From assembly GCA_947259045.1 (NCBI GenBank), contig CAMYKZ010000025.1, forward strand, positions 1 to 64,000: 64,000 nucleotides of DNA. Reading direction: 5' to 3'. Positions 1 through 61,375 of the stretch are shown here, piece by piece. Position 1 is the first letter of the stretch. Every line of letters begins with the position of its first letter. The position numbers were made by a program, and so were the translations under genes. Source of the stretch: an uncultured Afifella sp. GTDB taxonomy: Bacteria; Pseudomonadota; Alphaproteobacteria; Rhizobiales; Afifellaceae. The notes under the pieces are model-generated. The model was not told the DNA's origin. It saw only the letters and a program-made list of their open reading frames with translations, and made no database searches.

Positions 1-207
1 GACAAGTGCCGCCATGGCGTCATATCGCACATCCGAATCCTCGTCGAGAAGCGCGCCGACAAGAACAGGCGCGGCAGTTTCGTCGCTGAAGGTTCCAATG
101 GCCCGCGCTGCAGCACAGCGGACAATATCATCACCCTCGCTCAGATGACGGGCTATGGCTCCGACAGGATCGAACGGACAGGTTGGCAGGCTTTCGGCGC
201 TTGGCAT
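1..207 (-). CDS. HEAT-repeat protein, cut by the window edge
   Basis: The minus strand is open from an ATG at 207 to the window start (69 residues visible). The peptide reads as HEAT/PBS-lyase-like helical repeats: an R-C-A-A-A-R-A-I-G stretch is followed about 30 residues later by D-V-R-Y-D-A-M-A-A-L. Such repeats usually scaffold protein contacts, and some family members are partners of metalloenzymes. It lies 138 bp downstream of idrA in the same orientation, so it could belong to the same transcript. An upstream ATG at 238 is in another frame and soon hits a stop. The function is unknown. Confidence 0.6.
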   Translation of the reverse strand, partial: MPSAESLPTCPFDPVGAIARHLSEGDDIVRCAAARAIGTFSDETAAPVLVGALLDEDSDVRYDAMAALV

Positions 208-279: not shown

Positions 280-355
280 GCTCAAATCAGGCCCAAAAGT
301 TCCAGTCAGGCCCAGCCAGTTTTAGTCAGGCCCAGCCAGTTCCAGTCAGGCAATG
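280..355. repeat. 20-bp short tandem repeat at the idrA 3' end
   Basis: About three and a half direct copies of a 20-bp unit with core AGTCAGGCCCAGCCAG are seen at 300-319, 320-339 and 340-355 (last copy partial), with a degraded copy at about 280-299. The idrA stop codon (346-348) lies inside the last partial unit, so the array is a duplication of the gene end including its stop. No hairpin or T-tract typical of a terminator is present. Confidence 0.65.
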
Positions 356-3021
356 TCGCGGCGGGCAAATGACATGGAGCGGTATTGATGTTTGTAGGGA
401 CTCTCACCAAGCCGCTGCACGCTGCCCACGCCCATCTTGTAATTGTAGTTTCCGCTGATCCAGTCGACGACCCGTCCAGACAGAGCATTGGCTGGCTGGC
501 TGGTATGGAGGAAATCCATGAAACCGACTCCCTTCTTCACCGCAGGCGTCACGATGGCGACTGCTGTAATTGCGGCGCGGGTCAACTCGATATGCCCGTT
601 CTTCAGCAGCGCGGCAAAATCGAAATCATTGCCTTCAATACCGACAATCGTGTCCTTTTGCACCGGGATGCGATCAGAATAGATCATCACATAATCGCCC
701 GACTCCACACCCATGCCTGCGGCGTCGTCGGGGTGCAGTTCGACCCAGTTTTCCGGCCATCGCTGTACGATATAGGGGCGGCGTCGGTCGTCATATCCCG
801 ATTGCCAGCGCTCGTTTATCCGGCCCGACGTGATCCAGATCTCGCCCTCCCGCGGCTGCAGCCATTCCCAATAACTGGAAAACAGGCTCCACGGTGCCTT
901 CTGCAGGTTGCACTTTCCGGTCTGAGTATTGAAATGCGTCAGCTTCTTGTTGAACACGGTACCTCCGGCTGGCCCATTCTCAGGCAAGACCCGGTTCACA
1001 TCATGAAGCCGCTTGGTTTCCTCCAATGTACCGTCAGCAAGCATCAGGACCGGGCCCTGTATGCCGTTGGTGCCGAACTCGCCAAGTTTCTCGTGCAGCG
1101 TCTTGCCTTCCCGGTGCGCCACGACCTTGACCATATGGAAATCCTTCCGGGAGCCGCGTGAGAAACGCGAGCCCTCCTCCAGAACTTCGTTGGAATTCTT
1201 CCAATCGAATCCCTCAAAGCCCATTTTTCTGGCCAGTTGCGCAACAATCCACCAGTCCGGTTTTGCATCACCCGGCGCATCGTAGAACTTCGGATAAAGC
1301 CTGATCCGCCGCTCGCCGTTTGCGCGGGTAAAGGTGTCCTCGCCCCAGCCGGAGGCGGGGAAAACAATATCGGCGTAGCGCGCACCGATGGGATCGACGA
1401 GGTAGATGTCCTGATCCCAAACCACCATGCCCCCGGAATCGGCGCGCTTCTTGAGTGTGTCGATGATATCGGCCTTGTCGAAACTCTGCACCTGGTGGGG
1501 ATTACGCGTCGTCAGTTCGTCGAACTTGGCCTGCAGCGACTGAGAGCCGCACATGGCCTGCACCCAGGTGGTGCCGATGACGTGCGCAAGCCGGGTATGG
1601 CCCGACATCAGATAACGGTCGGTATCGAGCGCGCGCCGTCGGCGTCCCGGCAGCTTCTCGGGGCTTTTGTTGCGGGGATACGATCCCCCGCGCAGACCAC
1701 CGCGCTGATGTCCGCCGGCACGGCCGATGACCTGTCCGGGCCGGCCGCCGCAACCGCAAATGATACCAAGCGAGGAAATCGCGTTCGTATTGCCGGTATT
1801 GTTGGACCAGTAAAAGCCTTTCTCTATCATGATCGAGGTTTTCGGCCGGGTCCCGTCTTCTTTCGGCTTCGCCATCCATTCAGCGGCTGTGTAGATTTTC
1901 TGGACATCGATCTGGGCGATTTCAGCGGCCTTCTCTGGCACGGAATATTCCTGCGCGAATAGCCATTTCTTCCAGTCCTCAAAACCGTCGGTCTGGAACA
2001 TTCCCCAGGTCGTCCGCCATTGCCATGGCGTGTTCCGCGTGCCCTGGCCGAAACCCGACGAACTCTCCCATTTCGAGTTGACCCAATTCCGGATCCATTC
2101 CGCATCTTCCCAGCCGTTCTCGACGATGACACGGGCGATCGCGAGCACGACGGGCAGGTCAGTGCCTGGCTGGATATCAATCAGCATGCCGCCATTCTTT
2201 TCTGCGTAAGCAACACCAGCGGTGCGCCTCGGCAGCAGGAAGATCGCCTTCTGTCCGTTCTGAATTCCCGGCATGATCCAGTCGGTGAACAGGATGGTCT
2301 TGGATTCATACGGATCTGTGCCGCAAATCAGCAATGTTTCAGCATCACGCCAGTCTTCGTAAGAGGGCCCGAAATTGTCGAATCCCGCATCGCGGAAGCC
2401 CGGCGTTGAAGTGACATCCGACGGCGTGTCATGGAAGGTAAAATTTGCCGTCGCGACATTGCCGAGGGCGTATTTGGTGATGGCGTATGTATTCTCCATA
2501 TAGCCGTAGGAGAATGTCTTCACGCCATAGGCGTTCGTCCCGTGACGGTCGAGAACATGGCGACCGACTTCAGCGGCAATATCGAGTGCGAAATCCCAGG
2601 TCACCGGCATCAACACACCGAACATCCGCACCATCGGCGATTTCAGCCGGTCACGGGTCGGGCTTTGCGGATTATAAACCTTCTGGGCAATAGCGCCGCC
2701 GCGGATGGAGGAATTGCCGGCCGGATTGACGAACTCGGCATCCTTATCGGGAATAATCACGACATGGTGCGGCTCACCGTTGTGCAGAACGATATTATGC
2801 TGGTTTGGCGCAATCCATGCTCCAAGCGGACTGACCGGGAAATCTTCGCCAAAAGCATTTTCATCGGCAAGCGGACCGCCGACCTTGCCGCCGGCGACGG
2901 GCCAGCGATAGACCTTATAACCACAGGCGACGATGCAATAATCGCAGGCTGTCGAGATGACATCGGCGTCCGGCGGCGGCAGTGGAACGCTTTCTTCGGG
3001 GATATAATACGGGGTGGACAT
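346..3021 (-). CDS. idrA: Iodate reductase catalytic subunit (arsenite-oxidase-family molybdoenzyme)
   Basis: This 891-residue molybdopterin-guanine-dinucleotide oxidoreductase belongs to the AioA/IdrA branch of the DMSO reductase family. An N-terminal [3Fe-4S] site is visible as C26-x2-C29-x3-C33, with Ser104 71 residues later, as in arsenite oxidase. Family blocks include P-Y-E-S at 237-240, R-A-G-G-H at 434-438, N-G-E-R-R-I-R-L and a C-terminal R-S-M-S-F. It has no signal peptide and should be exported with the Tat-bearing Rieske subunit. It is longer than typical AioA (about 825-845 aa), and the segment around the AioA arsenite-binding His/Glu is not conserved. With two di-heme peroxidase genes upstream, iodate reductase fits better than arsenite oxidase. 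A GAGGAGG ribosome-binding site precedes the ATG, 12 bp after idrB. Confidence 0.78.
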   Translation of the reverse strand: MSTPYYIPEESVPLPPPDADVISTACDYCIVACGYKVYRWPVAGGKVGGPLADENAFGEDFPVSPLGAWIAPNQHNIVLHNGEPHHVVIIPDKDAEFVNPAGNSSIRGGAIAQKVYNPQSPTRDRLKSPMVRMFGVLMPVTWDFALDIAAEVGRHVLDRHGTNAYGVKTFSYGYMENTYAITKYALGNVATANFTFHDTPSDVTSTPGFRDAGFDNFGPSYEDWRDAETLLICGTDPYESKTILFTDWIMPGIQNGQKAIFLLPRRTAGVAYAEKNGGMLIDIQPGTDLPVVLAIARVIVENGWEDAEWIRNWVNSKWESSSGFGQGTRNTPWQWRTTWGMFQTDGFEDWKKWLFAQEYSVPEKAAEIAQIDVQKIYTAAEWMAKPKEDGTRPKTSIMIEKGFYWSNNTGNTNAISSLGIICGCGGRPGQVIGRAGGHQRGGLRGGSYPRNKSPEKLPGRRRRALDTDRYLMSGHTRLAHVIGTTWVQAMCGSQSLQAKFDELTTRNPHQVQSFDKADIIDTLKKRADSGGMVVWDQDIYLVDPIGARYADIVFPASGWGEDTFTRANGERRIRLYPKFYDAPGDAKPDWWIVAQLARKMGFEGFDWKNSNEVLEEGSRFSRGSRKDFHMVKVVAHREGKTLHEKLGEFGTNGIQGPVLMLADGTLEETKRLHDVNRVLPENGPAGGTVFNKKLTHFNTQTGKCNLQKAPWSLFSSYWEWLQPREGEIWITSGRINERWQSGYDDRRRPYIVQRWPENWVELHPDDAAGMGVESGDYVMIYSDRIPVQKDTIVGIEGNDFDFAALLKNGHIELTRAAITAVAIVTPAVKKGVGFMDFLHTSQPANALSGRVVDWISGNYNYKMGVGSVQRLGESPYKHQYRSMSFARRDIA

Positions 3022-3033
3022 GGCTTTTCCTCC

Positions 3034-3618
3034 TCAGCCCTGAAGATTGTAAAAACGGCCGTAGATCAGGCCGAACATTCCAACGGCGTAGATGTCGTCG
3101 CCCTCGACTTCCAAAAGCACCTGCGGCAGCGACTGGTAGGCCTGACCGGAAATGAAGATCCCGTGCCGGGTCAGATCAAAGGTCGTCAGGTGGAGCGGAC
3201 AGGGCCCCAGCGCTTTGTCGGCTGCCTGGTAAGTACCCTGAAGCGGCCCGCCCTGGTGTGTGCAGGTATAGTTGAAGGCAACAACGTCGCTTTTCGGCCC
3301 AACGCCGCCACCGGCTTCGCGGCCGAGCTTCACCAATATCGATTCCGCATATTGGCCCTCGTCGGGATATTCGAAATCGAAGGGTTCATCGTCCTTGAGA
3401 GACGACAGTTTGGTAATGAGCTTGCGCGGATAGGTCGCCACAACCGCGGGTGTCTGGGCCTCGGGTAGACCGGGTATACCGATCATGACGACCGCGGTCG
3501 TCACGCCGCCGGTCAACAGAAAGGTGCGCCGGTTCATCAGACAGGGGCGGGTTCCGGCCTTGGCGGCTTCATCGTTCTCGCCGTTAACGGCAGCAGCGAT
3601 ACGGGGGTCGATTGTCAT
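3034..3618 (-). CDS. idrB: Iodate reductase Rieske [2Fe-2S] subunit
   Basis: This 194-residue periplasmic Rieske protein is the electron-transfer partner of the molybdenum subunit. A Tat-type signal (N-R-R-T-F-L-L followed by a hydrophobic stretch, residues 29-50) sits behind a 27-residue leader. Cluster ligands are C119-x-H121 and C140-x2-H143. The two cysteines that form the disulfide in many Rieske proteins are replaced by Gly124 and Leu142, as reported for some arsenite-oxidase small subunits. The gene starts 14 bp after idrP1, with an AAAGGA-type ribosome-binding site, and ends 12 bp before idrA. The second Met at 3537 is a less likely start because it would leave almost no n-region for the signal. 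Confidence 0.78.
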   Translation of the reverse strand: MTIDPRIAAAVNGENDEAAKAGTRPCLMNRRTFLLTGGVTTAVVMIGIPGLPEAQTPAVVATYPRKLITKLSSLKDDEPFDFEYPDEGQYAESILVKLGREAGGGVGPKSDVVAFNYTCTHQGGPLQGTYQAADKALGPCPLHLTTFDLTRHGIFISGQAYQSLPQVLLEVEGDDIYAVGMFGLIYGRFYNLQG

Positions 3619-3632
3619 GTCTTCCGGTCCTT

Positions 3633-4763
3633 TCAGTTCCGCAGCGCTGTCGGCAGCGGCTCCATTGCCGGAAGATCCGGCTCATCGATCAGGATCTCCT
3701 CTCCGGAAAGGCTTTCCAGAAAGGCGACGAGATCATCAATTTCCGTTTCGGTCAGCTCCAGCGGCTGCATCAGCGGGCTTTTGGTTTCGGCAAACTCGTT
3801 CGCGCCGCCGCCGTCATTGTAAAACTCCACGACATCGCGCAGCGTTTCCAGCATTCCGTTGTGCATGTAGGGGAAGGTATATTTCGTGTACCGCAGGCTG
3901 GGCGTGCGGAACTTTCCACTATGGCGCTTGTCCTTGCTGCGAAAATACAGGCCGGGATCATCCTTTGTCTTGCGGTAGAGATCCTGGGTCGACCCCTTCG
4001 CATAGAGCTCGAAACGGAACGTGATCTGAGCAAGCTCATCTTCCGTCCATCCCGAATAGGCAGGCACGCCAAGATTATGATATTGCTCGTCGGACAGCAG
4101 TGGGCCGGTGTGGCAAGCGATACAGTTCGCCTTGCCTGCAAACAGTTCCAATCCGCGCTTTTGCTGTTCGTTCAGCGCATCGTCATCGCCGCGCATGTAA
4201 TTGTCGAACGGGGTATCAGTCTGAACGATCGTCCGCTCGAAAGCCGCGATCGCCATATAGGCGTGGCGAACATTCGGCCAGTCGTCGCCGAAAATCTCGG
4301 CAAAACGCTGGCGGTATTCGGGCACAAAGGCCAGGCGCGCCTCCATCATGTCGTCTTCGCCATTGCCGGCAACACCGCCACGGGCTGCGGAGCGGGCCTG
4401 CGATTCGAGCGATTTGGAGGAGCCCGCCCAGAAGAGTTTGGAATAATAGGCCGAGTTCACAATGGTCTGGCTGTTGCGCCAGTGAGTCGTACCGGGGTAT
4501 CCGAAGCTGATCCGGTCCTGAACGGCCCAGCCTGCTTCCGGTAAATGACAGGCGGAACAGGGCATGCCGTAATTGCCGGACAGAATGGGATCGAAAAACA
4601 GCATCTTGCCGAGTTCGGTTTTAGCCTCAGACATCGGATTGTCATCCGGAATCGGCGGTGCCCCGAGCGCTTCAAGGCCCGCAGGACGCGGATTGTCAGC
4701 CATTGCGGGCGCTGCCAGAAAGGCGGCTGCAAAGACTGCACTGATGGTTCTGAACGGGATCAT
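3633..4763 (-). CDS. idrP1: Di-heme cytochrome c peroxidase/MauG-family protein
   Basis: This 376-residue exported protein has a Sec signal peptide (residues 1-22, ending A-M-A) and two haem c sites, C69-S-A-C-H73 and C214-I-A-C-H218, with the F-R-T-P-S-L-R and Y-M-H-N-G blocks of bacterial cytochrome c peroxidases. In iodate-reducing bacteria two such proteins are encoded with idrAB and are thought to remove peroxide formed during iodate reduction. I chose the ATG at 4763 because AAGGAGG precedes it; the open frame extends to a TTG at 4778 that contains this ribosome-binding site. It follows idrP2 by 11 bp. Confidence 0.78.
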   Translation of the reverse strand: MIPFRTISAVFAAAFLAAPAMADNPRPAGLEALGAPPIPDDNPMSEAKTELGKMLFFDPILSGNYGMPCSACHLPEAGWAVQDRISFGYPGTTHWRNSQTIVNSAYYSKLFWAGSSKSLESQARSAARGGVAGNGEDDMMEARLAFVPEYRQRFAEIFGDDWPNVRHAYMAIAAFERTIVQTDTPFDNYMRGDDDALNEQQKRGLELFAGKANCIACHTGPLLSDEQYHNLGVPAYSGWTEDELAQITFRFELYAKGSTQDLYRKTKDDPGLYFRSKDKRHSGKFRTPSLRYTKYTFPYMHNGMLETLRDVVEFYNDGGGANEFAETKSPLMQPLELTETEIDDLVAFLESLSGEEILIDEPDLPAMEPLPTALRN

Positions 4764-4774
4764 TGCCGCCTCCT

Positions 4775-5848
4775 TCAATTGGTGGTTTCGCGCCAGTTTT
4801 CGATCACCTGATAGCCGTAATCATCGTCGCGCCAGACATAAGCATCGATATCGAAGCTTTCTCCGCTCAAGGATTTCAGATAGGCGATCAGGTCGGTTTT
4901 TTCGCTCGGCACAAGACCCAATGGCCGCAGCCGGGGATCCTTCAGCGGATCATCGCCGCCGCCGGCGTCGTAGAAATCGACAACCGACTCAAGCGTGGCA
5001 AAGACGCCGTTATGCATGTAGGGCGCAGTCCTGGTCAGTTCACGCAATGTGGGCGTCAGGAAATTGCGTTTCGCTTCCGGCTTGTGGGTGCGGATATAGG
5101 CGCCCAGATCTTCACGCAGGTTCATATAGTCTTCAACGCCCATGAACTTGGCATAGGTTACAAAGGCGGAATGCCGCTCGGGATCGGACCAGATTTCCGG
5201 ATTGCCGGGGACACCGGTATTGTGAGGCCGGTCATCGGAGAAGCGCGCGCCGGAATGGCAGGCCGCGCAGCCGGCCTTGCCTTCAAATAGCCCCTGCCCC
5301 CTCTGCGCCGCGGGCGAGAGCGCTCCTTCGTCGATCGGCGCCCCGCGCGAGACGATGGTTTGCAGGAAAGCCTGCAGCGCGTTGCGTGCACCGCCGTTTG
5401 AGGGTTCGCCCATCCCGGCGGCCTTGAACATGTCCACATAGACCGGATCCTGCTTCATGCGTTCCTGCATGATGCGCATGTCCATATTCATCAGATAGGT
5501 CTCGGTTATCATCTCCCGCGTAACGTCGTTGAGGTTGGTGCCCAACCGGCCGTCATGCAACCACGCATCGCGGTAACCGACATTGGCCAGTGTGGGCGTG
5601 TTGCGGAAATGCGCAGCGCCCGTATAAGCCGCAGACAGCGCCTCGCCGTCGGTAAACGCCTTGTCGGGCTGGTGGCAACTGGCGCAGGCGAGTGACGTGT
5701 CGCCGGACAGCCGCATGTCATAGAACATCCGCTTGCCAAGTTCGGCCAGTGCGGGTTTCACATCCATCGGCTTGATAGGCCCCGCGTCCTGGGCCAGCGC
5801 GGCAGAGCCAGCAAGAACAGTGATGGCTATGGCGAGTATCAGTCTCAT
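4775..5848 (-). CDS. idrP2: Di-heme cytochrome c peroxidase/MauG-family protein, first gene of operon
   Basis: This is a 357-residue exported di-heme peroxidase homologue. The signal peptide spans residues 1-19, and the haem c sites are C55-A-S-C-H59 and C194-A-A-C-H198. Peroxidase-family blocks F-R-N-T-P-T-L and Y-M-H-N-G are present. It resembles but clearly differs from the downstream peroxidase, so the pair is not a recent duplicate. I chose the ATG at 5848 because GGGAGA lies at good spacing; the ATG at 5854 is too close to it, and the extension to 5932 would run into the putative operator at 5923. As the promoter-proximal gene it opens the four-gene operon. Assigning P1 and P2 individually is tentative. 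Confidence 0.72.
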   Translation of the reverse strand: MRLILAIAITVLAGSAALAQDAGPIKPMDVKPALAELGKRMFYDMRLSGDTSLACASCHQPDKAFTDGEALSAAYTGAAHFRNTPTLANVGYRDAWLHDGRLGTNLNDVTREMITETYLMNMDMRIMQERMKQDPVYVDMFKAAGMGEPSNGGARNALQAFLQTIVSRGAPIDEGALSPAAQRGQGLFEGKAGCAACHSGARFSDDRPHNTGVPGNPEIWSDPERHSAFVTYAKFMGVEDYMNLREDLGAYIRTHKPEAKRNFLTPTLRELTRTAPYMHNGVFATLESVVDFYDAGGGDDPLKDPRLRPLGLVPSEKTDLIAYLKSLSGESFDIDAYVWRDDDYGYQVIENWRETTN

Positions 5849-5895
5849 GGGCATTCTCCCGTCAGGCAGCCGCGCAACCGGCACGACACTGCGCC

Positions 5896-5936
5896 ATTGT
5901 TTCGAACCACACCGGACAGTCATTGATTGCAATCAG
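5896..5936 (-). promoter_or_regulatory. FNR/FixK-like box and putative -10 for the idr operon
   Basis: TTGAT-TGCA-ATCAG at 5923-5936 matches the TTGAT-N4-ATCAA consensus of FNR/FixK-type regulators except for the last base. Reading towards idrP2, an AACAAT hexamer at 5901-5896 (4 of 6 matches to TATAAT) would put transcription start near 5889 and the box centre close to -41, the usual class II activation position. The start itself is inferred. Confidence 0.6.
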
Positions 5937-5958: not shown

Positions 5959-5972
5959 TTGACGCAGATCAA
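5959..5972. promoter_or_regulatory. Second FNR/FixK-like box in the divergent promoter region
   Basis: TTGAC-GCAG-ATCAA differs from TTGAT-N4-ATCAA at one base. Its centre is 36 bp from that of the box at 5923-5936 and about 63 bp upstream of the regulator's start codon. It could serve the divergent crp/fnr-type gene (autoregulation) or act as an upstream site for the idr operon. Confidence 0.5.
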
Positions 5973-6028: not shown

Positions 6029-6751
6029 ATGGGTGAAATCAGAAGGATTTACTGCGGCCCTGAGACGGCTGTACTTGGTCACCACCCCTGGAACAGTCTT
6101 ACCGAGCCCAGCGCAATCAATCTGATGAACCACGCAACGGTGAAGGACCTGACACGGGGCGATACTGTCGACGCAGACTTTGGTATCGTGACGTCCGGAG
6201 TGTTGGCGGTCGAGCGTATGCTGTCAGATGGACGTCGCACTCTCTGCGCGCTTTTTCACGAAGGCGATCTGGTCGATCTTCGCCGGACGATGCGCGACAA
6301 CCAGGGGCGGCTTGTTGCCCTGAACCCCTCACGATTGCTGGCCCTCAACGAACAATGGATCAGCAATTGCGCCGCCCCGCACCCCGATATCGCGCTCGCA
6401 TTCGTCATTCAGTTGCGGGATTATCTGGCCCGCATGCGTGACCACGCGATGGACCTGGTGTCGAAGACACCGCTTGAAAAACTCGCATCGGTATTGTTTG
6501 AATTCAGGCACTGGCCCGAGACGATGCCTGAAGAAGGCCATCACAACATGGTTCGCATACCGATCCAGAGGACGGACATTGCGGATTATATCGGCGTTAA
6601 ACCGGAAACCGTAAGCAGGGCGCTCCGGCAGCTGGAGCGCGAAAGCCTCATCGACATACCACAGCATGACAGGATATTTCTCAACGATATCCCGTCGATG
6701 CGCCGCATTGCGAACGGAGGTCGCCCGCGGCGGTCAACCCGGCCAGCTTAG
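6029..6751 (+). CDS. Crp/Fnr-family transcriptional regulator
   Basis: This 240-residue regulator has an N-terminal cyclic-nucleotide-binding-like sensor domain (about 35-125), a dimerisation helix and a C-terminal winged helix. The recognition helix contains E193-T-V-S196-R197, the E-x2-S-R pattern of FNR/FixK proteins that contact TTGAT half-sites; such boxes occur in its own upstream region. The three cysteines (9, 73, 114) are scattered, so there is no FNR-type iron-sulfur cluster motif; the signal sensed is unknown. It is divergent from the idr operon and is the obvious candidate regulator of it. The ribosome-binding site is weak, so a later start cannot be excluded. Confidence 0.8.
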   Translation: MGEIRRIYCGPETAVLGHHPWNSLTEPSAINLMNHATVKDLTRGDTVDADFGIVTSGVLAVERMLSDGRRTLCALFHEGDLVDLRRTMRDNQGRLVALNPSRLLALNEQWISNCAAPHPDIALAFVIQLRDYLARMRDHAMDLVSKTPLEKLASVLFEFRHWPETMPEEGHHNMVRIPIQRTDIADYIGVKPETVSRALRQLERESLIDIPQHDRIFLNDIPSMRRIANGGRPRRSTRPA

Positions 6752-10162: not shown

Positions 10163-11116
10163 TCACCCTGCGATATAGCGATATTGTCCAGCCTTTGTTG
10201 CTTCGACGCGGCCAACGCCGGGCCATGGCAGATGATAGCCGACAATCCCGACCCGGTCGGCGGCCAGCATGCCCAGCAGACGCTTGCGTGTTTCGACCGC
10301 CTGCTCAGGGATCTGGTCGAACCCAAAATGCCAGTCCGGCCGTTCAAATGAGACGACCTGATGGGTCAGTGCATCGCCGGTGATCAGCAGTTGCGATCCG
10401 CCGCTTTCAACCAGAACAGACATGTGCCCCGGCGTGTGTCCGGGTGTCGCCATCATCGTCACGCCGGGCATGACCGCAAACCCATCGCTGACCCGCTCGG
10501 TTTTTTCAGCAACCGGATTGATGTTGCGCTGTGCGCCCAGCGCAAACGGCGCCATTGTGTCAGGCACTTTTGTCAGAATATCGGGGTCCATCCAGAAATC
10601 CCATTCCGTGGATCCGATGACATAATCTGCATTGGGAAACCGTTCGCTTTCCTCAAAATCGTCGATGATGCCCCAGACATGATCCGGATGCGCATGGGTC
10701 AGAACCACTTTCGTTACCGCGTCCGGATCGACACCAGCCAATTCCAGGCTGTCTGTCAGGCGCCCGGCACTGTCCATGAAATTCATGCCGCCGCCGGTAT
10801 CGATCAGCACCAGGTCTTCGCCATGTTTGAGAAGCGTTACATTGACGGCACCAACCCGCCGGTCGGTCGGCAATCCGGCTGCCTCGAGAAGCGTCTTCAG
10901 CGCCTCCGGATCAACTTTCGGCGCCAGGGTCGAAACAGGCAGAACGATTTCGCCGTCCGACAGGACGGTGATCTCAAAATCGCCGAATGAAAATTCGTGT
11001 ACCGACGGTTCCTGGGCGAATACCGGCAGGCCGTTTGAAAGCGTGATACCGGCAAACCCGGCACCGCCCGCCAGTTTGAGCAACCGTCGCCGGTCCAGTT
11101 GACAGAAATCAGCCAT
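10163..11116 (-). CDS. Exported metallo-beta-lactamase-fold hydrolase
   Basis: This 317-residue protein has an N-terminal Tat signal (D-R-R-R-L-L-K-L-A-G-G, then a hydrophobic stretch ending F-A-Q). The MBL zinc-site motif T-H-A-H-P-D-H is followed by T-P-G-H-T-P-G-H and T-G-D-A-L. It should be a periplasmic di-metal hydrolase; related proteins include lactonases and organophosphate-degrading enzymes, but the substrate cannot be read here. The ATG at 11116 follows GGAGG; the longer frame from the TTG at 11128 contains that ribosome-binding site. It is convergent with grxD, and I saw no clear terminator between them. Confidence 0.8.
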   Translation of the reverse strand: MADFCQLDRRRLLKLAGGAGFAGITLSNGLPVFAQEPSVHEFSFGDFEITVLSDGEIVLPVSTLAPKVDPEALKTLLEAAGLPTDRRVGAVNVTLLKHGEDLVLIDTGGGMNFMDSAGRLTDSLELAGVDPDAVTKVVLTHAHPDHVWGIIDDFEESERFPNADYVIGSTEWDFWMDPDILTKVPDTMAPFALGAQRNINPVAEKTERVSDGFAVMPGVTMMATPGHTPGHMSVLVESGGSQLLITGDALTHQVVSFERPDWHFGFDQIPEQAVETRKRLLGMLAADRVGIVGYHLPWPGVGRVEATKAGQYRYIAG

Positions 11117-56326: not shown

Positions 56327-59300
56327 ATGCGTATGGGCATCGGAACGAGTACAATGGGTAAAATGCCAAAATCAGATGCAACCGAAGCTGCCTTGTCAGC
56401 CGTAGAAGAAGCATTGCGGATCGATTTCGGAACCCCCGATCTTTCTGCTGAAACCGAAACAGTTCCGAGCGAGAGCGTCTCAGACGCCCAGAACGATGAG
56501 ACCGGAATACCGGACCAGCCGGAAGAACAGGCCCGTTCGAAGGCCGAAACGGCAAGCGAACGCCGGGCTGAACGCCGGGCGGCACGCGCGGAAAAGGCAG
56601 CTTCAAAATCCGCTGAAGCTTCAACCGACAGATCCCGTTCCCGCAAAGCGGCCAATGACGATGTGCGTTCGATCGGCAATCTGCTTTACGGGCTGCAGAA
56701 GCGCCCTTCGGCAGCGCCATTCTGGACTGCATTCATTCTGTCAATCGTCTGGGTAGGCCTTGGCCTTGCTTTCGGCGCAAGCCTCTGGGCCGATGACGTG
56801 GCGGCAATCTCGTCCGCTGATCAGTTACGCGACGCCCCGCACCTGATTGCACTTGCCATCTCAATCTGTGTTCCCGTTGTCCTGTTCTGGGTGATGGCGC
56901 TTCTGATCTGGCGCAGCCAGGAAATGCGGATTGTCTCACGCACGATGACCGAAGTGGCCATGCGCCTGGCCGAGCCGGAGAATATCGCCAAGGAATCGGT
57001 TGTGACGGTCGGACAGGCGATCCGCCGCGAAGTCGCTGCAATGGGAGATGGCATCGAACGGGCCCTGGCCCGCGCCAGCGAACTCGAGGTTCTGGTGCAC
57101 AACGAGGTCACATCGCTTGAGCGCTCCTATACCGACAATGAGCACAGGGTCCGCCGGTTGCTGGACGAACTGGTGAATGAGCGTGAATCCATCATCAATA
57201 ATGCAGATCGCGTTCGCCAGGCAATTCAGGGCAGCCACTCCAATCTCGTCGGCGACCTGAGCCAGACATCCGAGCAGATCAGCGAAACTGCGCAGAAGGC
57301 CGCACAGAAACTTGCCGAGGCCCTGAAGGAGCATGGCGATACGATCACGATTTCCATGCGCGACACCGGTGAACAGATTGCCGGGGCGGTTGCCACACAG
57401 ACAAGCGGCCTGTTCACGCAGCTGAACGAAATCAATGCTGAACTCGCCGAGACCATTGCCACCCGTGGCGATGATCTGGTTGAGCGTCTTTCAACCACCA
57501 ATACGAATATCGGCGATACGCTGGCTGAACATGGCGAGGGTCTGATCGGCCGCATTACCGAGACCGGCGAGAAGCTGACCGGGGAAATCGCCAACAGAAG
57601 CGAAAACGCTCTCGCTCACCTATCGCAGGCGAGCGAGGAAATCGGTTCGATGCTGGGCAGCACGAGCTCCCAGATCACCAGCGAACTTGACGCGGCGCAG
57701 GCGCGACTCGGGCAAACGCTGGGCGAAAAATCGGCATCGCTTCTGAAAGGTTTGCACAGCGCAGGCGAACGGATCGAAGCCGCTGTTTCCGTAGACGGAA
57801 ATGATCTGCTGGAACGCCTGAACGAACAGGGCGGCGCATTTATCGGCAAACTGGACGAAAGGTCGGAAGGGCTGCTCAACCGGCTGAACCAGCAGTCTGA
57901 GGGACTGATTGGAAATCTGAATGAGAAATCTGAAGATCTGATCGGCAAATTGTCGGAGTCCGGGGCGCAGATTGTCGGACGCCTGTCCGATGACAGCAGC
58001 GATCTGGTCAGCCAGCTCGACAGTCGTGGCAACAGCCTGGTCGACAGGCTTGCAAACCAGGCATCGAACTATGTCGAGCAGCTCAATCTGCATGGTGAAG
58101 AACTGACCGCAAGGCTTGACAGCAAGACCGGCGATGTTGCCGAACGCCTGATCGGCAAGGCCGATGATGCGACCGCCCGCATCGAGCGGGCGACCGACAT
58201 TGTCAATCAGACGCTTGCAGAGCGGACAAAGGGCGTCATCGAACAGCTCAGCGAGACCGGCCAGAGCGTGTCGCGTTCCATGCTGGAAGGGTTGGAAGAC
58301 GCCAGGCTCGGCATCACGTCGGCTGGAGACAGTCTGACTGCAGATCTTTCCGCTGCTACAGAAAAGGTCCAGTCAACCGGGCTGAGCACAGCAGAGCTTC
58401 TGAGTGAAACCGGCGACAATATCACCCGCAAGATCAGCGAAGAAGCCGCATCCGTCCAGTCGGCGATGGCGAATGCCGGTGATATCATGCAGTCCGCCGG
58501 ACAAAACGTATCTTCGCTTCTGGGCAAGGAACTGTCCGACATCGAAGCCGTTCTGGGCAAGGCCGGTGAAGACGCCAGCCTGCGTCTGGCGGATCAGGGC
58601 GAGACGATCCGTGCCAATATCGAAACCGGCCTGGCGCAGATGTCCAGCCTGATCTCCACAGAGGGCGGGCAGCTTGCAGCAAGCCTTGGTGAACGCAACG
58701 AAGCTCTCGGCAGCCTGATTGATACCCGGATTTCGCAGATGGGTGAAACGATCGATACGCATCTTGGCGGCTTCGACACCCGTATCATGCGCAGCGCGGA
58801 AGATGTTGCCGTTCGTCTCGCCTCTTCGGCAGATGCGGTGGAAACGGCTGTTGCCGGCCGGCTGGCCGGTTTCGAGGATCGGTTCACCTCGCGGATATCG
58901 GAGGTTGGCGAAAACTTCACCACCAAAGCGGACGGGCTCAGCGAAACGCTGGAAGACAGACTGTCGCGGATCAATACGGCTCTTGACACACGCGCCCGTC
59001 AGATCAGCGAAACCCTTGTCGCCCGCACGCGCGACATTGCAACGGCGTTTCAGGACGGCCAGGGCGACATGACATCTGCCCTTGACGAACGTCTGCTTCA
59101 GCTGGGCGATACCATGACGAACCGGACGACGGAACTGACGGAATCGATCGCCAACCGGATGATCGAGATCAACCATGGCTTTGGCGAACGCCTGATCACT
59201 GTCGAACGGTCCTTCGCAGACCGGGCGAATTCGCTTGAAGCGGTTCTCAATGTCACCAACAGCACACTGAGCGAGCGCACCGAAACATTGAACACGATGC

Positions 59301-61375
59301 TGACTGCGCGCCAGTCCGAGCTGGCCGGCCTGCTGGATACCACCAGCAGCACACTCGTCAACACAATCCAGGCGCGCGGCAGCGCGGTTATTGCCGGCAT
59401 CGAGGAACAGGGACAGGCATTCATCAGCAGTGTCGAAGGCCGCGGCAATGCGCTGGTTGAAGCGATCAGCAATGAGAGCCAGACAGCCAGCCAGCAGCTT
59501 GATGAAAGCGGACGCAAGCTCGTGACTGTCCTGAACGAACGCACCAGCGGAATCGTCGAGCAGGTTTCTGCAACAAATGACAAGGTCCGTGACGAGATCC
59601 AGACCATGCTCAGCAGGCTCGACGGCACGAACGAGCAGGTTCAGACGATCCTGATATCGGCCGGCGAACAGCTGGGATCTATCGAAGCGAGATTGTCCGA
59701 CCAGTCGCAGACCCTGCGCGAAGCTCTCGATGCTGCGGCTCGCGATACCGGGACGTCGACGACAATCCTGACGGACCAGATCAAAACCCTGCGCGACGTA
59801 TCCACACATGTGCTTCGCGACATCAGTTCTATTGCCGGCCAGTTCGAAAGCCAGACAGCGTCTCTTTCCGGCGCCAATGCGAACCTTGTGGAAACCAATC
59901 TGGTTGTCGAACAAAACCTCTCCGACCGCCAGGAGGCGCTTGGGTCGATCGCAGAAGGACTGGCAACCAACGCCCAGGCGGTTGAAGAACGCCTGAGCAG
60001 CCTGACCATGATTTTGTCGGAGACGTTGAACACTGCCGAGCAGCGGGTCGCGTCGCTCAGCGAGGCGCTGGCGCAGCGCACCGAGGATTCCACCCGGTCA
60101 GCGACCAATATGCTGGAATCGACAATCACATCAGCCGATGAACGGGTCGGAGCAATCAGCGAAGCGCTTGGCCGTCGCGCGGAAGATGCCGCCCGATCGG
60201 CAATCGGTCAGTTTGAAACCATGCGGCTTGCCGCCGCCGCAGAGGGCAAACGCGCAGTGGAAAGTGTTGAAGCCGCCCGCGCCGAGCTGGAAGAACAGCT
60301 GAATAACGCCAGCAGCCGGACCGACGAGACAGTCCGCACAACGGCACACAGACTGGTGGAAGAGATTACCAGAGCCGTTGGCGAAGCCACCACGCGATTT
60401 GGCGAAACCGCCGAAGACATGCGCAAGGCAGCCTGGGATCTGCAGAAAGAACTCGACGATACAAGAGGCGAATTGCGCCGCGGGGTCCTCGACATGCCAG
60501 AAGAGGCTCGCGAAACCACCTCCGCAATGCGCAGGGCTATTGCAGAACAGATCGAAGCCATCAATGAATTGTCCGGCCTCGTCGCCCGCTACGCGCCTGA
60601 TTTTGATACCATGCCCTCTATCACGCAAAATGCACCGGAAACACGCAAGCTTGCAGCCGTTGCGCCGCCTGAACCGGTTCGGGAGATCGCCAAGCCGCCG
60701 GCGGAACCGGACCTGAGAAACATGGAAAACGAAACACCTGTTCGCCTCGCCAGTTCGGCAGGACGTCCGGCGCGCAGCGAGCGGGTTGTGCCGGAGCCGG
60801 AGGCATCCGTGCCGGCGCGTGCCCCGCGCCGTGCTGCGGTTGCCGAAGCAGTTGAATTCGATCGGCAGAAACCGGCGCCAGCGCCGCGTTCCGGCTCGGG
60901 CGAAGCCCGTGGCTGGGTTGCCGACCTTTTGCGCCGGGCATCGACCGACGACGAAGAGGGTGAACAGTTGAAGGGCGCCAACAATGCGGCGGCTGAGCCG
61001 GCTCCAACCGGCGATCGCCGGTCGCCTTCCCAGGTCGTCGATTCGCTGAATTCACTTTCCGTCGACATTGCCCGGGCTATCGATCACGAGGCCTCTGTCG
61101 AACTTTGGGACCGTTACAAGAAGGGTGAGCGCAATGTCTTTACCCGCCGGCTCTACACTCTTCAGGGACAAAAGACATTCGATGAAATCCGCCGCAAATA
61201 TGAGCGCGACAACGATTTCCAGAACGCCGTCGACCAGTATATTGACGATTTCGAACGTCTGCTCAAACAGGTCTCCCTGAATGACGACGACCAGATGATG
61301 TCGCAGATGTACCTGACGTCGGACACCGGCAAGGTCTATACGATGCTCGCTCACGCAGCCGGACGACTGAGTTAA
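56327..61375 (+). CDS. Giant coiled-coil membrane protein resembling the growth pole ring protein (GPR/RgsE)
   Basis: This 1682-residue protein has an acidic and Arg/Ala-rich N-terminus, two transmembrane helices (about 131-154 and 172-195), then about 1250 residues of nearly uninterrupted amphipathic helix rich in E-R-x-x-x-L and S-E-T repeats, like apolipoprotein-type domains. A Pro/Ala-rich linker leads to a compact C-terminal domain (W-D-R-Y-K-K-G-E-R-N, T-L-Q-G-Q-K-T-F-D-E-I). This layout matches the growth-pole-ring proteins that organise unipolar growth in Agrobacterium and Sinorhizobium. Several ATGs (56327, 56333, 56354, 56363) could start it; none has a strong ribosome-binding site. 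Confidence 0.8.
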   Translation: MRMGIGTSTMGKMPKSDATEAALSAVEEALRIDFGTPDLSAETETVPSESVSDAQNDETGIPDQPEEQARSKAETASERRAERRAARAEKAASKSAEASTDRSRSRKAANDDVRSIGNLLYGLQKRPSAAPFWTAFILSIVWVGLGLAFGASLWADDVAAISSADQLRDAPHLIALAISICVPVVLFWVMALLIWRSQEMRIVSRTMTEVAMRLAEPENIAKESVVTVGQAIRREVAAMGDGIERALARASELEVLVHNEVTSLERSYTDNEHRVRRLLDELVNERESIINNADRVRQAIQGSHSNLVGDLSQTSEQISETAQKAAQKLAEALKEHGDTITISMRDTGEQIAGAVATQTSGLFTQLNEINAELAETIATRGDDLVERLSTTNTNIGDTLAEHGEGLIGRITETGEKLTGEIANRSENALAHLSQASEEIGSMLGSTSSQITSELDAAQARLGQTLGEKSASLLKGLHSAGERIEAAVSVDGNDLLERLNEQGGAFIGKLDERSEGLLNRLNQQSEGLIGNLNEKSEDLIGKLSESGAQIVGRLSDDSSDLVSQLDSRGNSLVDRLANQASNYVEQLNLHGEELTARLDSKTGDVAERLIGKADDATARIERATDIVNQTLAERTKGVIEQLSETGQSVSRSMLEGLEDARLGITSAGDSLTADLSAATEKVQSTGLSTAELLSETGDNITRKISEEAASVQSAMANAGDIMQSAGQNVSSLLGKELSDIEAVLGKAGEDASLRLADQGETIRANIETGLAQMSSLISTEGGQLAASLGERNEALGSLIDTRISQMGETIDTHLGGFDTRIMRSAEDVAVRLASSADAVETAVAGRLAGFEDRFTSRISEVGENFTTKADGLSETLEDRLSRINTALDTRARQISETLVARTRDIATAFQDGQGDMTSALDERLLQLGDTMTNRTTELTESIANRMIEINHGFGERLITVERSFADRANSLEAVLNVTNSTLSERTETLNTMLTARQSELAGLLDTTSSTLVNTIQARGSAVIAGIEEQGQAFISSVEGRGNALVEAISNESQTASQQLDESGRKLVTVLNERTSGIVEQVSATNDKVRDEIQTMLSRLDGTNEQVQTILISAGEQLGSIEARLSDQSQTLREALDAAARDTGTSTTILTDQIKTLRDVSTHVLRDISSIAGQFESQTASLSGANANLVETNLVVEQNLSDRQEALGSIAEGLATNAQAVEERLSSLTMILSETLNTAEQRVASLSEALAQRTEDSTRSATNMLESTITSADERVGAISEALGRRAEDAARSAIGQFETMRLAAAAEGKRAVESVEAARAELEEQLNNASSRTDETVRTTAHRLVEEITRAVGEATTRFGETAEDMRKAAWDLQKELDDTRGELRRGVLDMPEEARETTSAMRRAIAEQIEAINELSGLVARYAPDFDTMPSITQNAPETRKLAAVAPPEPVREIAKPPAEPDLRNMENETPVRLASSAGRPARSERVVPEPEASVPARAPRRAAVAEAVEFDRQKPAPAPRSGSGEARGWVADLLRRASTDDEEGEQLKGANNAAAEPAPTGDRRSPSQVVDSLNSLSVDIARAIDHEASVELWDRYKKGERNVFTRRLYTLQGQKTFDEIRRKYERDNDFQNAVDQYIDDFERLLKQVSLNDDDQMMSQMYLTSDTGKVYTMLAHAAGRLS

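Follow-up and report, generated by a model that had tools for sequence, protein, structure and literature searches.

A probable iodate reductase operon and an adjoining HEAT-repeat gene in an uncultured Afifella species

Introduction

Which bacteria make iodide from iodate, and when, is of wider interest, since the iodide formed contributes to ozone loss at the sea surface and to iodine in the atmosphere (PMC11445184). The question is raised here by a locus in an uncultured Afifella sp. (Alphaproteobacteria; Rhizobiales). The stretch analysed, referred to as the window, comprises bases 1-64000 of contig C25 (CAMYKZ010000025.1) of a 275-contig assembly (GCA_947259045.1). Four genes near its start had been read, in an original prediction made from the sequence alone, as a complete iodate reductase operon of a Hyphomicrobiales-type bacterium that can reduce iodate, possibly as a respiratory electron acceptor. 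Do these genes encode an iodate reductase, which other genes belong with them, and under which conditions would they be used?

In the published model, iodate is reduced by IdrAB in the periplasm, removal of peroxide probably falls to the peroxidases, and hypoiodous acid undergoes disproportionation (PMC8692401). A model for Pseudomonas sp. SCT has a chlorite-dismutase-like protein convert the hypoiodous acid (recounted in PMC8692401 and PMC10149662). Genes around idrABP1P2 have been described as poorly conserved (PMC8692401).

Results

Positions 346-5854 of the window hold four intact minus-strand genes. In transcription order these are idrP2 (4775-5854), idrP1 (3633-4763), idrB (3034-3618) and idrA (346-3021), and the successive gaps between them measure 11, 14 and 12 bp. 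The proteins IdrP2 (359 aa) and IdrP1 (376 aa) are di-haem members of the CCP_MauG family, each with two CxxCH motifs; their best NCBIfam neighbours, MbnH and MauG, remain under their cut-offs. IdrB is a Rieske [2Fe-2S] subunit of 194 aa with a Tat-like motif (NRRTFLLT) and the Rieske signature CTHQG...CPLH; the Pfam model TAT_signal gives 20.0 bits, just short of its cut-off of 22.7. IdrA (891 aa), the catalytic subunit, is recognized by Pfam and NCBIfam as a molybdopterin protein and contains a Rieske_3 3Fe-4S domain. Judged by eye only, the N-termini of IdrP1 and IdrP2 are Sec-like and IdrA is without a signal. IdrA carries CX2CX3CX70S, the published IdrA [3Fe-4S] motif (PMC10149662), and the placement of two CCP/MauG di-haem genes ahead of the Rieske and molybdenum subunits is the P2-P1-B-A synteny that defines idrABP1P2 (PMC8692401; PMC10989891). 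Families, motifs and order bear out the gene names of the original prediction, as the measured gaps do its close packing; only its end point, 5848, has to be moved, as this is the next in-frame Met after the idrP2 start at 5854.

The arrangement is widespread. A scan of species genomes yielded 513 stretches with a relative, and the best 80 of the 513 (L037-L116), which are the nearest relatives and skewed to Alphaproteobacteria, were examined. At 73 of the 80 loci the four genes stand in the same order on one strand, so that the gene set is not a chance arrangement; at the remaining seven, no more than 1.9 kb separates idrA from the start of the contig. When 398 genomes of the phylum were sampled, five matched at E <= 1e-200, one of them the genome of the window itself. 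Taken together, these counts make the four-gene set a known and common kind. Six IdrA peptide patterns had no match in viral contigs.

A homologous system is arsenite oxidase, AioBA of NT-26 and Alcaligenes faecalis, which has in common with IdrAB the subunit pair and the cofactor motifs. Indeed, the NCBIfam models for AioA (TIGR02693; 422.6 bits, cut-off 359.05) and AioB (TIGR02694; 117.2 bits, cut-off 95.65) score above cut-off on IdrA and IdrB; evidently they also catch the iodate reductase subunits. The two families were compared in an unrooted maximum-likelihood tree (IQ-TREE) of 34 Idr-type and 10 AioA proteins, 44 in all, set up without ArxA, the named IdrA proteins of Denitromonas, SCT and DN11, and two distant host enzymes. 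The Idr/Aio split has support of 100/100 and the window's IdrA falls outside AioA; the tree program issued a long-branch warning, notably for L034 and the Cytobacillus AioA. The closest relatives of the window's IdrA are from Pelagibius (94% identity), followed by Kiloniellaceae and Sulfitobacter algicola (92%); the nearest sequences come from Rhodovibrionaceae, Kiloniellaceae and Roseobacteraceae, outside the host's family.

The active site points the same way. The second coordination sphere of molybdenum in NT-26 Aio consists of H199, N200, R201, E207, K385, R447 and H451 (PMC3758308). Among 48 proteins (10 AioA and 38 Idr; NT-26 numbering), H199, R447 and H451 are conserved in all. N200, R201 and E207 are all kept in the 10 AioA proteins and none of them is kept in any of the 38 Idr proteins, which have D at position 200 (38 of 38), T (31), K (6) or H (1) at 201, and S (31), D (6) or A (1) at 207. 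The equivalents in the window's IdrA are D198, T199 and S205. Most proteins of its lineage are of this type, HDTS; six proteins are HDKD (Azonexus, Thiothrix, G094, G047, G326 and G120), and L031 (HDHS) and Vibrio (HDTA) fit neither type exactly. No di-haem peroxidase is annotated within 3 kb of any of eight AioA plasmid loci, in a plasmid gene table that is incomplete; this agrees with the original prediction that arsenite oxidase operons are without the two peroxidases. Its named counter-outcome, a place inside AioA with the arsenite-pocket residues retained, is not what the tree and the alignment returned. No other IdrA/AioA-type enzyme was detected in the host genome at E <= 1e-50. Arsenite oxidase was rejected as the identity of the protein on tree position, second-sphere residues and flanking genes. 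By protein set, gene order, cofactor motifs and tree, the window's protein is assigned to the known iodate reductase family. We found no mention of the residue signature in the papers searched, where fewer searches were aimed at it than at the HEAT-repeat gene described below.

Within the Idr family, a branch with Azonexus (L118) and Thiothrix (L119) has about 50% identity to the IdrA of the window; its flanking genes (cytochrome c, moaA, and a kinase with a sigma-54 regulator) differ from those at the present locus. Two further loci stand apart. L034 (7085-16752; G047) has an IdrAB-like pair with an IdrA 43% identical to the window's and a long branch at the base of the Idr clade; no idrP1 or idrP2 homologues were found within 18 kb, and the pair adjoins di-haem cytochrome and FixO/cbb3-like genes. 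L092 (10001-14876) is an idr locus with a HEAT-repeat gene on a contig labelled Anaerolineae (Chloroflexota), its IdrA being 78% identical; it may reflect recent transfer or misbinning.

In calling the operon complete with four genes, the original prediction drew it too narrowly. At 78 of the 80 loci, an open reading frame (ORF) for a HEAT-repeat protein follows 3' of idrA on the same strand, and at the two exceptions, L073 and L095, the contig runs out before that point. The window starts at the contig start, with idrA 345 bp from that end, and the locus therefore continues beyond it: the window holds only the 5' end of the HEAT-repeat gene (69 codons at 1-207, minus strand), cut by the contig start, and contig C50 starts with the remainder (G000:C50:1-2016). 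Aligned with the Pelagibius copy, this 5' end (read from 207 to 1) shows 67% identity in 70 columns. A tandem repeat of 3.3 copies of a 20-bp unit (287-351) lies mostly in the idrA-HEAT spacer and overlaps the last bases of idrA.

The distribution of the gene was followed with a profile built from 41 proteins, with up to 10 candidates scored per genome and E <= 1e-25 taken as a match. A match was obtained in 13 of 101 related genomes, which are exactly the 13 with an alphaproteobacterial-type IdrA (Fisher p 1.3e-14, assuming independent genomes). At this threshold there was none in G094 and G047, which have more distant Idr-type proteins, nor in 86 other relatives. At E <= 1e-10, G047 gave one short match with an internal stop at a contig end, and G094 still gave none. 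In 12 of the 13 positive genomes the gene or its start adjoins idrA on one contig; in the other (G034) the gene and idrA are each at contig ends that cannot be joined. Among further genomes of the phylum sample, G428 has the gene adjoining idrA, and G326, G112 and G120 gave no match. Next to the idrA genes of Vibrio THAF190c (L117), Azonexus (L118) and Thiothrix (L119), no HEAT-repeat gene was detected.

The HEAT-repeat protein has a median length of 752.5 aa in 70 uncut copies with mechanically picked starts, one of which, at L072, is short (479 aa). Across 62 loci its median identity is 25%, against 79% for IdrA; it is a fast-evolving protein. Its distances follow those of IdrA (Spearman 0.69; Mantel null maximum 0.095), the corresponding values for IdrB, IdrP1 and IdrP2 being 0.76-0.87. 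The Pelagibius protein was modelled with a pLDDT of 87; the predicted structure is an alpha-solenoid made up of two blocks and a linker of low confidence (about 429-528). No signal peptide was noticed by eye, the only means of judgement, and the protein is apparently cytoplasmic. The 50 Foldseek matches listed against the PDB are generic HEAT-type solenoids (CAND1, the PP2A A subunit, karyopherins and SF3b) with TM scores up to about 0.45 and large root-mean-square deviations, and the fold therefore names no function. Our best guess is a scaffold for assembly or export of IdrAB. A link between iodate reduction and a HEAT-repeat gene was not found among the papers listed in full-text searches, which stop short of figures, supplements and subscription papers; two papers that mention both iodate and HEAT repeats are unrelated, and in the main text of PMC11445184, its supplement aside, the two terms do not occur together.

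Beyond the HEAT-repeat gene, C50 continues with a DCC1-like gene and a saccharopine-dehydrogenase/DUF4166 gene, which are left out of the module because the other idr loci compared gave no counterpart at E <= 1e-8. In a sub-branch of idr loci a different set follows the HEAT-repeat gene, as at L024 (58-5371): carboxypeptidase-regulatory-like, Usp/PCP_red, radical SAM (NirJ2/AhbD-like)/PCP_red and protoporphyrinogen-oxidase-like proteins. The set is matched by similarity at L025-L028 and L114, with family assignments taken from L024 only, and is possibly a haem-making or haem-modifying module beside the di-haem peroxidases.

On the other side of the operon, a candidate regulator of the Crp/Fnr (FixK-like) family is transcribed divergently (6029-6751, plus strand). 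In local alignment, genes at the equivalent position in Pelagibius, two Kiloniellaceae and Denitrobaculum share 57-62% identity with it; the counterparts in Sulfitobacter algicola, Roseibium/Labrenzia and Pseudovibrio share 35-40%. Such a gene occurs at 21 of the 80 loci, and many other idr loci have a histidine kinase with an OmpR-type regulator. The 174-bp spacer contains two FNR/FixK-like boxes, TTGATTGCAATCAG (5923-5936) and TTGACGCAGATCAA (5959-5972), each with one mismatch to TTGAT-N4-ATCAA, against 0.02 predicted from the rate in the window (7 in 64 kb). At 71 loci with an uncut idrP2, boxes with at most one mismatch were sought from 300 bp ahead of the called start to 90 bp beyond it; they were present at 18 of the 21 loci linked to a Crp gene, 6 of the 32 linked to a kinase and 7 of the remaining 18, the loci being related and some of the boxes lying inside coding sequence. 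The [4Fe-4S] oxygen sensor of FNR needs an N-terminal cysteine cluster. This cluster is absent from the window's protein and its nearest relatives (L037, L039, L041), and cysteine-rich N-termini are present in the aligned Roseibium/Labrenzia and Pseudovibrio homologues. We found no mention of an idr-Crp/Fnr linkage in the papers searched, again with fewer searches than for the HEAT-repeat gene.

The genomic setting suggests how the genes arrived. In the family-mate G004, purC, purS, purQ, a small lipoprotein-like gene and purL form an unbroken series. In the Afifella assembly, the first four of these lie on C50 behind the HEAT-repeat gene and the two genes that follow it, with a lipoprotein-like protein 52% identical to that of G004 over 109 residues, and purL lies on C25 behind the crp gene. 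Given the unbroken order in G004 and the adjacency of C25 and C50 implied by the split HEAT-repeat gene, an idr block of about 11 kb, the two extra genes included, would be inserted between the purQ-lipoprotein pair and purL if the contigs adjoin. IdrA is absent from all ten other family genomes examined, two of which have an AioA-type protein. The purL on C25 is most similar to those of family-mates (up to 80%), which argues against a foreign contig. The Hyphomicrobiales-type host of the original prediction is supported. Per kb, the GC content of the idr block (0.57-0.61) stays inside the range found in the remainder of the first 16 kb (0.54-0.62), so that it is synteny, and not composition, that indicates transfer. 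The Idr gene set thus appears horizontally acquired, with the HEAT-repeat gene travelling along.

Elsewhere in the window, a gene at 10163-11113 encodes a metallo-beta-lactamase-fold protein with a Tat-like N-terminus by eye, whose best curated neighbour is the AidB lactonase, below cut-off, and an ORF at 56327-61375 encodes 1682 aa with apolipoprotein-like amphipathic repeats. Rfam and tRNA scans of the whole window gave no matches.

Discussion

We consider it highly probable that the locus is an intact alphaproteobacterial-type iodate reductase operon that uses iodate as an auxiliary electron sink in hypoxia rather than for anaerobic growth, and that the HEAT-repeat gene belongs to the module. 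By homology, an iodate-reducing capacity is well supported, and the bacterium probably turns iodate into iodide at low oxygen. IdrAB would reach the periplasm by means of the Tat signal of IdrB and pass electrons from a c-type cytochrome to iodate at the molybdenum site. The Sec-exported di-haem proteins IdrP1 and IdrP2 would clear the peroxide by-product, and hypoiodous acid would disproportionate or otherwise become iodide. The divergent Crp/Fnr-type protein probably activates the operon at low oxygen through the FNR-like boxes, iodate most likely being an auxiliary electron sink and not an anaerobic growth substrate, and the cytoplasmic-looking HEAT solenoid encoded 3' of idrA would be part of the same transferred module. 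The sequences themselves give gene content, phylogeny, residues, linkage and synteny. Reaction, localisation and peroxide removal follow the literature; regulation, the electron-sink role and a function of the HEAT protein we infer.

The same P2-P1-B-A order is found in Pseudomonas sp. SCT, Denitromonas sp. IR-12 and Azoarcus sp. DN11 (PMC10989891), which likewise have the [3Fe-4S] motif, two di-haem proteins, an island-like distribution and a Rieske subunit, Tat-exported there and with a Tat-like motif here. Their surroundings differ from those of the window: DN11 has a kinase and a sigma-54 regulator and SCT has cytochrome c and molybdenum cofactor genes (PMC10149662), in place of the Crp/Fnr-type and HEAT-repeat genes. 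Alphaproteobacterial idrABP1P2 clusters are also present in the marine aerobes Roseovarius azorensis, Notoacmeibacter marinus and Aliiroseovarius sediminilitoris, compared here by description and not by sequence; iodate reduction has been demonstrated in all three (PMC11445184).

Does the operon support true anaerobic growth on iodate? SCT, IR-12 and DN11, with which it has the idrABP1P2 core in common, are reported iodate respirers (PMC8692401; PMC10149662), and deletion of idrA in Denitromonas abolished growth by iodate respiration (PMC8692401). As of 2022, however, every experimentally confirmed respirer belonged to one small clade of ten genomes, in which a two-component system, cytochrome c551 and moaA are often neighbours of the cluster (PMC8801600). 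These neighbours are resembled by those of Azonexus and Thiothrix, which suggests a link of that branch to the respirer clade; the identity of about 50% was measured to this branch and not to the named SCT, IR-12 and DN11 proteins, and its flanks differ from the window's. Moreover, the three alphaproteobacteria reduced iodate in static culture at low oxygen and under N2 showed neither growth nor iodate reduction (PMC11445184). We therefore regard dissimilatory respiration as unlikely here. The original prediction of iodate reduction stands on homology, and its respiratory part is not favoured. A low-oxygen electron sink, also suggested in PMC11445184, is preferred on these culture results and the FNR-like boxes.

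The substrate could also be another oxyanion, such as bromate or chlorate, with iodate reduced incidentally. The mostly HDTS second sphere of the lineage, as against HDKD in Azonexus and Thiothrix, would leave room for a different specificity. In R. azorensis, however, the idr genes are induced by iodate and static growth, 0.1 uM iodate already inducing idrA, and IdrA dominated the band excised from the iodate-reducing zone of the gel, with the top coverage of 24 proteins (PMC11445184), which makes this quite improbable. Least credible, to a degree that we give it hardly any weight, is a divergent arsenite oxidase that chances to adjoin two peroxidase genes. The above-cut-off NCBIfam matches and the shared H199, R447 and H451 would suit it; the separate clade, the replaced N200, R201 and E207, and the two peroxidase genes, conserved alongside IdrA of this type and unannotated at the AioA plasmid loci, do not.

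Several points weigh against the iodate electron-sink interpretation or parts of it. Arsenite oxidase is the NCBI model label of both subunits, and K385 of NT-26 fell on no lysine in the alignment and was excluded from the residue count. Crude extracts of R. azorensis gave no significant Idr activity, and anaerobic reduction of iodate was seen in washed cells that had been grown statically with it beforehand (PMC11445184), a result that also favours the respiratory alternative. The genetically proven IdrA of Denitromonas is assigned only by inference to the branch of about 50% identity. The boxes are found where neither regulator was recognised (the 7 of 18 loci), the Crp-linked loci are related to each other, and, for want of the cysteine cluster, the window's regulator appears to be only FixK-like. 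Integrity of the HEAT-repeat gene in this genome is deduced across a contig break, and the contamination estimate of the assembly is 5.33%.

One intriguing possibility, to which we give somewhat less than even weight, is that alphaproteobacterial iodate reduction is a five-gene system. The HEAT solenoid would be a dedicated cytoplasmic protein, gained with the lineage and absent from the respirer-like branch, on which IdrAB depends for its assembly, export or control. It would mark a mode of iodate reduction of its own, at low oxygen and without growth, regulated by a Crp/Fnr-type protein or a two-component system.

In conclusion, the locus adds one genome to a common lineage and speaks to the question of which bacteria make iodide from iodate, and when. 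The residue signature separates the examined IdrA from AioA proteins and may help in the annotation of metagenomes, as curated models label IdrA- and IdrB-type proteins arsenite oxidase. The types of regulator predict low-oxygen control of idr loci, and the conserved fifth gene is a testable component of iodate reduction.

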